Source: an uncultured bacterium (GTDB lineage Bacteria > Patescibacteriota > Saccharimonadia > Saccharimonadales > Saccharimonadaceae). Taken from it: a DNA stretch of 64,000 bases. How positions within the stretch are numbered: the first letter of the stretch is position 1; each line of letters starts with the position of its first letter. The stretch is taken from the NCBI GenBank assembly GCA_937863415.1, contig CALMFC010000005.1, forward strand, positions 1 through 64,000, in the 5' to 3' direction. Positions 2,058-63,112 of the stretch are shown piece by piece. The translations under genes were made by a program, and so were the position numbers. The notes under the pieces are model-generated. The model was not told where the DNA came from, did no database searches, and saw only the letters and a program-made list of their open reading frames with translations.

Positions 2058-2146
2058 GTTTTTGTTTATCCTGTTATAACGCTACTATACTAAATTTTGA
2101 TTAAATCATCTACTACCTTAGGAGCGGCTTCAAGCCCCATCCCAAA

Positions 2147-2170
2147 CAAAAAAGTCCCACTGGGACTTCT
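2147..2170 (-). terminator. Intrinsic terminator after duplicated tRNA-His 3' end
   Basis: AAGTCCC / GGGACTT stem with a 3-nt loop, followed on the minus strand by a T run. Same sequence as the terminator of the intact tRNA-His gene. Confidence 0.75.
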
Positions 2171-2320
2171 TTATTTGGGGCGAATGATGGGGCTTGGTCA
2201 CGTTCCGCGACCCCGACACATCACGATAACGAGCATAGCTCGTTTCGGATGATGTCCTTGCGACCCGCCACCGGCGGGTCTCACCCACTACCTTAGGAGT
2301 GGATTCAAGCCCCATCCCAA

Positions 2321-2345
2321 ACAAAAAAGTCCCACTGGGACTTCT
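2321..2345 (-). terminator. Intrinsic terminator of tRNA-His
   Basis: AAGTCCC-AGT-GGGACTT followed by six T on the minus strand, directly after the encoded CCA. Confidence 0.8.
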
Positions 2346-2350
2346 TTATT

Positions 2351-2428
2351 TGGGGCGAATGATGGGGCTTGAACCCACTGCCTCCGGGACCACAACCCGG
2401 CGCTCTAACCAGATGAGCTACATCCGCC
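2351..2428 (-). tRNA. tRNA-His (GTG)
   Basis: Full cloverleaf. Acceptor GCGGATG pairs with CATTCGC. An extra G at -1 faces C73, the histidine identity element. The anticodon loop TTGTGGT holds GTG, the T-arm is GTGGG-TTCAAGC-CCCAT, and CCA is encoded. Confidence 0.97.
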
Positions 2429-10835: not shown

Positions 10836-10911
10836 GCCCCGGTAGCTCAGTGGATAGAGCAGAGGACTTCTAAGCCTAAGGTCGTTGGTTCGATCCCAAC
10901 CCGGGGTACCA
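10836..10911 (+). tRNA. tRNA-Arg (TCT)
   Basis: Acceptor GCCCCGG/CCGGGGT (G1·T72 wobble), anticodon loop CTTCTAA with TCT, T-arm GTTGG-TTCGATC-CCAAC, encoded CCA. The anticodon stem is weak (G27-A43 and A31-G39 do not pair), which is odd for a functional tRNA. Confidence 0.88.
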
Positions 10912-10953: not shown

Positions 10954-11194
10954 TGCCGAGTTGGGTCGAAATGGCGACTTTTTGCTACGCAAAAAATGTC
11001 GTTGGTGAGAACTGCCACTACGGCAGTTCGCAAGGCCGGAAGCCGGATGACGAACGTCACCGACTGAGGCGGGGTCGAGAAAAATTAGGAACTAATTTTA
11101 TCGTGACCGATCCCAACCCGGGGTACCAAAATAAAATAACTGACACACCCGTCAGTTATTTTGTTTTGACCCTGAGCTGGATCGAAACGACGAC
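10954..11194 (+). repeat. tRNA-Arg trailer module with type 1 insert
   Basis: Antisense T-arm GGGTCGAAATGGCGAC (10963-10978), a TTTTTGC/GCAAAAA hairpin, T-arm strand GTCGTTGGT (10998-11006), type 1 insert (11007-11107, GAGAACTGCC to CGTGAC), tRNA-Arg 3' end copy with CCA (11108-11128), a new terminator AAATAACTGAC/GTCAGTTATTTT (11129-11165), then a second antisense T-arm (GGATCGAAACGACGAC, 11179-11194) with a truncated continuation. The insert carries an extra AAAATTAG/CTAATTTT hairpin not seen in the other copies. Confidence 0.85.
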
Positions 11195-21539: not shown

Positions 21540-21660
21540 CGGGGTGTGGCGCAGTTGATAGTGAGAACTGCCAGTGGCAGTTCGCAAGGCGACGTTACAA
21601 ATGAACTGTGTTCATTTGACTAACTCGCGTTGGCCAGAGGAACGTGACCGCTCGGTTTGG
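21540..21660 (+). repeat. tRNA-Pro 5' fragment with type 1 insert
   Basis: CGGGGTGTGGCGCAGTTGATAG (21540-21561) copies the 5' end of tRNA-Pro up to the D-loop. A type 1 insert follows (21562-21648): an AACTGCC/GGCAGTT hairpin, TCGCAAGGC, an AATGAAC/GTTCATT hairpin, then GGAACGTGAC. tRNA-like sequence CGCTCGGTTTGG resumes after it. Unlike the other copies, the join is in the D-arm. Confidence 0.8.
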
Positions 21661-21716: not shown

Positions 21717-21792
21717 CGGGGTGTGGCGCAGTTGATAGCGCGCTCGGTTTGGGACCGAGAGGTCGAAGGTTTGAGTCCTTTCACCCCGACCA
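21717..21792 (+). tRNA. tRNA-Pro (TGG)
   Basis: Acceptor CGGGGTG/CACCCCG, anticodon stem CTCGG/CCGAG with loop TTTGGGA (TGG), T-arm GAAGG-TTTGAGT-CCTTT, encoded CCA. The T-loop begins TTT rather than TTC. Confidence 0.95.
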
Positions 21793-21840: not shown

Positions 21841-22016
21841 CCTCAACCTTCGACCTCAGAAGTCGAAGGTGAGAACTGCCAGTGGCAGTTCGCAAGGCGA
21901 TGTCACTGATGAACTATGTTCATCCAGCCTGACTCGCGGGGTCGCCGGAGGTGACTGAGTCCTTTCACCCCGACCAAATAAATAAGACCGTCCTTGGACA
22001 GTCTTTTTTATTTGGA
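21841..22016 (+). repeat. tRNA-Pro trailer module with type 1 insert
   Basis: Antisense T-arm AACCTTCGAC, loop, T-arm strand GTCGAAGGT (21862-21870), type 1 insert (21871-21955), tRNA-Pro 3' end with CCA (21956-21976), and a new terminator (21977-22014; GACCGTCC/GGACAGTC flanked by AAATAAA/TTTATTT). Confidence 0.85.
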
Positions 22017-22026
22017 ACCGTAGCAA

Positions 22027-22215
22027 AGATTCAAACCTTCGACCCAAATTTTGTATACAAAATTTGTAGGTCAAGGTTTGGCTAAGTGAGCGAAGCAAAA
22101 GAAAGCGCGTCAGCATTTTCTTTTGCGAGCAAGCGGAGGAGGCTTTAGCCGATCCTTTCACTAGCCGTGAACTCGCGGGGTCGCCGGAGGTGACTGAGTC
22201 CTTTTCGCCCTTACC
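22027..22215 (+). repeat. tRNA-Pro trailer module with type 2 insert and a truncated type 1 end
   Basis: Antisense T-arm TCAAACCTTCGACC, a perfect 20-bp palindrome at 22046-22065 (AAATTTTGTA and its complement), T-arm GGTCAAGGTTTG (22069-22080), type 2 insert (22081-22153, GGCTAAGTGAGCGAAGC to GGCTTTAGCCGAT), a short tRNA-Pro 3' piece CCTTTCAC, then the last ~25 bp of a type 1 insert (to GTGAC 22194) and a degenerate 3' end. Confidence 0.75.
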
Positions 22216-62743: not shown

Positions 62744-62820
62744 GGTAGTGTAGCTCAGTTGGTTAGAGCGCGAGACTCATAAGCTCGAGGTCACAGGTTC
62801 AATTCCTGTCACTACTACCA
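62744..62820 (+). tRNA. tRNA-Met (CAT), elongator-like
   Basis: Acceptor GGTAGTG/CACTACT (G1·T72), D-loop AGTTGGTTA, anticodon loop CTCATAA (CAT), T-arm ACAGG-TTCAATT-CCTGT, encoded CCA. The GTAGCTCAGTTGGTTAGAGC and GGTCACAGGTTC blocks match elongator Met. A lysidine-type tRNA-Ile(CAT) is the alternative, and TilS is encoded nearby. Confidence 0.9.
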
Positions 62821-62870: not shown

Positions 62871-63112
62871 GATTGAGCCTGAGACTTTTTGCGAAGCAAA
62901 AATAGTCACATGGTCGCGTAGAGAATGAAGCGAAAAAGTGTTTACATTTTTGAGCGAATGAACGGAAGAGGCTTTAGCCGATATTCCTGTCACCTAAACT
63001 GAATCTGCAACACGCAAGTTTCTTGCCTTAAGTCACAGGTGAAAACTGTGCGTTTTCAAAGATGTTGTTTCGTGGTCTCGGAACATGACTAATTCTTGTC
63101 ATTATAACTAAA
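62871..63112 (+). repeat. Two tRNA-Met trailer modules (type 2 and type 1 inserts)
   Basis: Module a: antisense T-arm GGATTGAGCCTGAGAC (62871-62886), GACTTTTTGC/GCAAAAA hairpin, T-arm GTCACATGGT (62906-62915), type 2 insert ending GAGGCTTTAGCCGAT (62983), tRNA piece ATTCCTGTCACC. Module b: degenerate antisense TGAATCTGCAAC, T-arm GTCACAGGT (63032-63040), short type 1 insert GAAAACTGTGCGTTTTC to GGAACATGAC (63041-63089), degenerate 3' end TAATTCTTGTCA. Confidence 0.75.

Follow-up and report, generated by a model that had tools for sequence, protein, structure and literature searches.

Integron attC sites are recombination sites that work as folded single strands, each formed by one hairpin with R and L boxes; their cassettes lie in tandem and the integrase acts in trans. 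Bulge-helix-bulge tRNA introns of archaea are short structured inserts found in several tRNA loops, with nested cases, and single-stranded hairpins are the substrate of the Y1 (RAYT) enzyme family. REP sequences and RAYT genes have been divided into GTAG and CGTC super-families (PMC3733652), and REPINs have also been described (PMC3116915). In addition, integration is known to occur at tRNA genes and to leave partial copies of them (PMC9897764 and references therein).

The stretch of Saccharibacteria DNA analyzed here, a window of 64,000 nucleotides, carries inserts (type 1) that belong to a real, structured, patchy and tRNA-loop-targeted DNA family outside Rfam. Type 1 resembles REPs and REPINs as short non-coding hairpin DNA that is present in many copies, patchily distributed and devoid of coding capacity, and CGTC REPs likewise have no known dedicated transposase. 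However, type 1 differs from REPs in its three hairpins, conserved linkers, position in copies of tRNA loops and accompanying tRNA 3' half and inverse; its conserved ends are GTGA...GTGAC and not an unpaired GTAG or CGTC tag, and at the 20 Y1 loci read the gene was not flanked by copies as in REP/RAYT systems. A likeness to integron attC sites may be proposed from the folded-single-strand sites, tandem units and trans-acting enzyme, but nearly all type-1 units lack the gene of an attC cassette, and in place of an integron integrase the genome of the window has one tyrosine recombinase (a family-level count), as do type-1-free congeners including G013. tRNA genomic islands, which use a tyrosine integrase (Williams 2002, cited in PMC9897764), are like type 1 in the T-loop break, the restored tRNA 3' end and the partial copy at the far side, and type-1 units do break the T-loop and restore the tRNA 3' end. 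Unlike islands, the units are about 200 bp long and without genes, so contain no integrase, lie in tandem, occupy many tRNAs per genome and have a covarying structured end. Archaeal introns share short structured inserts, several tRNA loops and nesting with type 1, whereas the copies interrupted by type 1 are partial, an intact tRNA adjoins each, splicing is neither needed nor seen, and the inserts do not sit in the only copy of an essential tRNA. This neighbouring intact tRNA was the reason for rejecting a self-splicing or bulge-helix-bulge-type intron.

In the window, ARAGORN and Rfam recognize six intact tRNAs, and partial copies of the same tRNA, interrupted by inserts, adjoin the intact His, Arg(tct), Pro and Met genes. 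Type 1 is represented by four copies, spread over the His, Arg and Pro loci, and by a further, decayed copy at Met. The features are as follows, with the source of each in brackets; R1 is a covariance model built from 13 copies of the window's own genome.

2351..2427, minus strand: intact tRNA-His(gtg) (ARAGORN, Rfam)
2316..2350, minus strand: bidirectional terminator-like palindrome 3' of tRNA-His (sequence)
2298..2316, minus strand: inverted T-arm copy (T-), GATGGGGCTTGAATCCACT (local alignment, sequence)
2283..2290, minus strand: left half of the second T-arm copy (T5') at His, ending at T54 (sequence)
2197..2282, minus strand: type-1 insert, His copy (R1 99.4 bits, E 1.9e-23)
2259..2283, minus strand: His hairpin 1, hp1 (folding, sequence)
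2215..2256, minus strand: His hairpin 2, hp2 (folding, sequence)
2196..2212, minus strand: His hairpin 3, hp3, GGTCGCG-GAA-CGTGACC including a fixed G.T pair (folding, pair counts, sequence)
2176..2196, minus strand: T3' at His, from position 56 on: right half of the second T-arm copy, acceptor and CCA (sequence)
2123..2175, minus strand: second terminator and T- copy, a partial tandem repeat of the His unit (sequence)
2197..2372, minus strand: whole His repeat unit, from tRNA T55 to the end of hp3 (DNA fold z -9.85)
10836..10911, plus strand: intact tRNA-Arg(tct) (ARAGORN)
11007..11107, plus strand: type-1b insert, Arg(tct) copy, with an extra hairpin within hp3 (R1 55.7 bits)
21563..21648, plus strand: type-1 insert in the D-loop of an upstream 5' tRNA-Pro copy at 21540-21561 (R1 78.3 bits)
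21717..21792, plus strand: intact tRNA-Pro(tgg) (ARAGORN)
21871..21955, plus strand: type-1 insert in the T-loop of a downstream tRNA-Pro fragment (R1 90.7 bits)
22170..22195, plus strand: type-1 3'-end remnant CTCGCGGGGTCGCCGGAGGTGACTGAG in a further Pro fragment (R1 18.9 bits; sequence)
62744..62820, plus strand: intact tRNA-Met (ARAGORN)
63041..63089, plus strand: decayed type-1 insert at tRNA-Met, without hp1 and the 5' part of hp2 (sequence; missed by R1)

A sequence-only reading had described these inserts as a family with preserved ends and covarying hairpins, and that observation is real but holds in part. It was right about the coordinates and ends at His (2197-2282, minus strand), Arg (11007-11107), Pro (21871-21955) and Met (63041-63089), which start with GAG or GAA after T54 and end with GTGAC or ATGAC before T-loop position 56, and the hp1 stems it named (CCCGCC/GGCGGG and ACTGCC/GGCAGT), the GCAAGG linker and the varying hp2 stems are all present. 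The Pro copy at 21562-21648, which it took for a T-loop insert, is instead in the D-loop of a 5' tRNA-Pro copy. At Met, GAAAAC/GTTTTC had been offered as a covarying hp1; this pairing is the hp2 tip (compare TTGAAAACTTGTTTTCAAAGATGTTGTT in L106) and therefore not hp1, which is missing from the Met copy together with the GCAAGG linker and half of hp2. The pseudoknot envisaged at 21871 is unnecessary, as folding nests both GCGA/TCGC and GTCA/TGAC within hp2. Moreover, functional tRNAs are free of the inserts, which occupy partial copies adjoining an intact gene, an arrangement seen at every locus of the window's own genome and elsewhere wherever the flank is long enough, and these partial copies are mostly accompanied by an inverted T-arm copy that the earlier reading did not include.

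The insert itself has the order hp1, GCAAGG linker, hp2, GG and hp3. At the His locus the complementarity of T- to the tRNA T-arm extends over the insertion point (local alignment score 17.5, vs 10.0 in shuffles), and a short loop separates it from T5'; the Arg, Pro and decayed Met loci follow the same plan. Folded as one DNA strand, the His unit forms a rod and four hairpins with both unit ends meeting at the junction (z -9.85, 0 of 200 shuffles), the rod being the tRNA 3' half paired with its inverse and capped by the terminator. A Herbaspirillum Asp unit folds into the same shape (z -11.1). In Saccharibacteria T- spans the insertion point of the target, and it can pair either with the T3' of its own unit or with a flanking T3'.

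Five copies that were folded have z scores of -3.1 to -5.7 relative to chance. Across 81 distinct copies from relatives, pairing holds in 95.0% of cells, as opposed to 73.2% in shuffles; two-sided changes occur in 32 of 35 pairs, and the covariation score is 0.551, compared with at most 0.086 when the partner is slid; with 116 copies the score is 0.571 and 95-96% of cells are paired overall. Since the alignments were fitted to the model they favour pairing, but the slid and phylogenetic controls are far lower. The covariation analysis that the earlier reading had proposed was run as an R-scape-style test, in which substitutions on a FastTree tree were re-dealt over columns: 20 of 35 pairs were significant at E < 0.05, all inside the structure and 0 outside it. 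The type-1 structure is thus a real folded family, and covarying pairs in more than 100 copies exclude chance. Most hairpin loops have three bases, and the unpaired linkers GTGA, GCAAGG and GGGG are kept across many genera. A lone exceptional column, the fifth pair of hp3, is informative: 107 of 114 copies have G.T there.

That 20 of 35 pairs beat a phylogeny-aware null supports the earlier proposal of selection on folded RNA or folded single-stranded DNA, with the caution that hairpin-templated correction could yield covariation without selection. This bears on an alternative in which the host makes the palindromes without a dedicated enzyme: replication would stall at the hairpins of tRNA terminators and T-arms, the inverted T-arm and the tandem units would arise by fold-back and template switching, and inserts would pass from tRNA to tRNA by exchange between similar T-arms. 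Stems would then covary without selection because imperfect hairpins would be corrected by the same switching. Two template switches would give the T+ T- T+ order, and T- tracks the tRNA of each species, both as this alternative would have it. However, many genera retain the linkers, the hp3 tip and the fixed G.T mismatch, and hp3 is conserved in two phyla; correction alone would not have kept these features. Inserts in D-loops and in a REP-like hairpin, where T-arm homology is missing, also argue against host-made palindromes, which we consider possible but somewhat unlikely.

RNA stems tolerate G.U but not A.C. With the fixed G.T column set aside, type-1 stems contain 60 G.T and 37 A.C cells, whereas the acceptor and T stems of tRNAs from the same genomes contain 145 G.T and 3 A.C (Fisher p about 3e-14, counting cells and not events). 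The strong preference for G.U over A.C seen in functional structured RNA was therefore not found (60 vs 37), and the near-symmetric ratio favours DNA over RNA. Because wobbles are rare and G.T is barely above A.C, the helices look as if kept at the DNA level: the arms are maintained as Watson-Crick partners, as expected of DNA hairpins or of hairpin-templated correction, and scarcity of both wobble kinds is what the latter predicts.

If type 1 instead acted as a structured RNA, it would be a tRNA trailer or a separate transcript, for example a decoy or regulator of tRNA maturation. In keeping with this, the insert lies on the strand of its tRNA and RNA folding energies are strong, and in one Burkholderiales genome units between tRNA-Asp genes have no terminator, end in CCA (L409, L419) and are probably transcribed. 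Yet in Saccharibacteria the downstream unit sits behind a terminator, G.T hardly exceeds A.C, unlike in tRNA stems, type 1 is patchy and dispensable, and an Rfam match is absent: gathering and permissive thresholds returned only tRNA and no relevant weak match. We therefore regard an RNA function as improbable.

With R1, 15 clear type-1 copies were found in the window's own genome (0.85 Mb), at tRNA loci; statements about this genome are based on searches and tRNA neighbourhoods. Matches occur in 38 of 60 relatives, with 1 to 22 per positive genome, and some nearly complete congeners have 0 copies. Among 380 genomes across the phylum type 1 is limited to the order, bar a single 56-nt match at a contig end in Patescibacteria outside it, which was given no weight. 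Most distinct copies (100 of 116) are within 600 nt of a same-strand tRNA, and most of the remaining 16 either lie on a stretch too short to show a tRNA or adjoin a clear tRNA fragment. Among 73 downstream copies, the insert starts 64-97 nt past the tRNA end in 63, and T- scores above 50 shuffles in 57. Neither of the outcomes that the earlier reading had named as refuting it occurred. Covariation is significant in more than 100 copies, and the family is not confined to syntenic loci: copies occur at many tRNAs, and a minority are placed in upstream tRNA copies, in D-loops, in a REP-like hairpin (L081) or exactly within the hp3 of another copy (Arg(gcg), L102, L079, L105).

Of 20 congeners, 12 have an empty tRNA-His locus, with neither T- nor insert, 6 a filled one and 2 decayed remnants, which establishes patchiness at one and the same locus. 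T-, T5' and T3' there track the T-arm of each species' own tRNA, and variant 1b occupies this place in G003 and G012. Tandem copies are also established, since G021 has an array of identical units and L273 near-identical ones. In type-1-free G013 T- copies are almost absent from the tRNAs, and because of this the inverted copy can be assigned to the element. A clean before/after pair was not found; the closest relative is about 77% identical.

Partial tRNA copies of this kind might also be scars of integrative elements, left when a tyrosine integrase with a T-loop attachment site produced empty attL and attR sites, with type 1 as the arm region of attP. The use of tRNA genes as integration sites where partial copies are left behind (PMC9897764) agrees with this, and one unit has a Nudix-like gene, identified by eye, between tRNA and insert (L090). 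In contrast, the 64-97 nt spacing is cargo-free in nearly all downstream copies, a second tyrosine recombinase is absent from the window's genome and from most copy-rich congeneric genomes, and attachment arms are bound in duplex form, which does not call for covariation as hairpins. Such scars are accordingly a very unlikely origin.

None of three mobility enzyme classes (Y1 transposase, tyrosine recombinase and reverse transcriptase) is tied to type 1, and each was rejected as mobilizer, being absent here or not specific; this agrees with host-made palindromes. The genome of the window has no Y1 transposase and no reverse transcriptase, and the latter does not track type 1 among genomes. Y1 is present in 25 of 38 genomes with type 1 vs 3 of 22 without (p 1e-4, ignoring phylogeny), and outside the genus in 10 of 14 vs 1 of 18 (p 1e-4, again ignoring phylogeny). 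These counts, together with the single-stranded hairpin substrates of Y1 enzymes, would suit a REP-like element mobilized by RAYT transposases of other strains. However, Y1 genes have their own, unrelated and mutually differing inverted repeats at their ends and are seldom close to type 1 (R2 matches within about 2 kb at 2 of 20 loci), type 1 lacks a GTAG or CGTC tag, and G041, G042 and the window's genome have many copies but no Y1. Mobilization by RAYT is the least probable of the origins weighed here. As a separate observation, near-perfect palindromes such as TTAGAAGGACGGACCTTCTAAA lie on either side of RAYT-like Y1 genes in Saccharibacteria and differ from gene to gene (L388, L393, L394, L401 and others).

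Searching GTDB genomes for the 17-base hp3 pattern gave matches in Saccharibacteria and in Pandoraea, Herbaspirillum, Noviherbaspirillum, Roseateles and other Burkholderiales, so the arrangement recurs in a second phylum. The order there is tRNA, terminator (absent in some), inverted acceptor end, small hairpin, inverted T3', hairpin A, hp3 and T3'. Herbaspirillum rhizosphaerae has 8 copies; those whose context was read lie at Leu, Asp, Ser and Glu tRNAs. A model built on this form matches 11 of 200 genomes of the order, the weakest match (L417) having no tRNA context and probably reflecting chance, and 7 of its 23 pairs covary significantly in the R-scape-style test. The hp3 tip GC-x-GAA-x'-GT is common to both phyla, and the fixed G.T is found in 45 of 48 Burkholderiales copies. 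Judged from these sequences, chance convergence of the two forms seems unlikely, although their likeness does not amount to common descent. In one genome (G495; L409, L419) tRNA-Asp genes and units alternate, each unit finishing with a tRNA 3' end that includes CCA; no terminator separates them, so the units are probably co-transcribed there.

Neither form matched phage or plasmid collections, and three pattern matches in viral contigs had surroundings without a tRNA fragment or the hairpin set. No description of such an arrangement was found in the part of the literature covered, which falls short of proof. The family is apparently undescribed, and it is folded, probably movable DNA.

The explanation we tentatively prefer, at slightly below even confidence, is a gene-free cassette whose folded single strand is what moves or duplicates at tRNA loops. 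This DNA cassette would be tiny and non-coding, with type 1 as its structured end, and its targets would be tRNA loops, chiefly the T-loop between positions 54 and 56. Each repeating unit would run from the tRNA T-loop through its own 3' end, CCA and terminator to the inverted 3'-end copy and the hairpins, and would close on itself, with the tRNA 3' half and inverted copy as a rod beside hp1-hp3. The fold suggests that the strand may use T- as a splint. This inverted T-arm, whose complementarity to the target spans the insertion point, could serve as splint or guide, hp3 could be a conserved recognition hairpin, and a putative enzyme might act in trans while the folded strand is moved or duplicated. 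The host tRNA would stay functional because each unit supplies its own tRNA 3' end and terminator. A free circle or autonomous version was not seen.

A wider proposal, that Patescibacteria and Proteobacteria have in common a new class of mobile element (a gene-free single-stranded cassette with an antisense copy of its target as guide or splint, which rebuilds the 3' end of the tRNA it enters and depends on a putative enzyme recognizing the hp3 tip), is rather doubtful at present. If the single-strand cassette is real, many Saccharibacteria tRNA genes bear traces of an unnamed element whose pairs are kept at the DNA level, and a class of mobile DNA would be added in which the match to the target is written as an inverted copy within the element. 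In that case a large set of partial tRNA copies, annotation noise until now, would be explained, and hp3 offers a clear search target for the enzyme. Even if the host's replication makes the palindromes, the family would be a strong natural case of hairpin-templated copying that shapes the surroundings of tRNA genes.

Other inserts were observed at the same kinds of site. Several genera have upstream 5' copies of tRNA-Gly(gcc) whose D-loop carries type 1 (L076, L109, L269, L275, L314); these copies share an odd end stretch, CTTGCCAGGCCAAGG, as if they predated the genus split. A second family, type 2, consists of GGCGAAG..GAA.., a variable hairpin and GCGGAGGAGGCTTTAGCCGAT (window positions 22082-22161 and 62890-62985; L011, L029, L043). 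It occupies the identical T-loop place behind Tyr, Ser, Ala, Asp, Pro and both Met tRNAs, where an inverted T-arm precedes it too; a pattern search for further copies yielded little. A third family, AATTCTGTCAAATC..GATTTGTACAGAATT..GATGACA..TGTCATC, is found in the T-loop of downstream tRNA fragments in the window's own genome, at tRNA-Glu (L005) and tRNA-Trp (L025). Lastly, T-arm copies of tRNA-Gly(gcc) with a hairpin inside the inverted copy adjoin tRNA-Phe or another gene, at the tRNA-Phe locus of the same genome (L027) and in L403.
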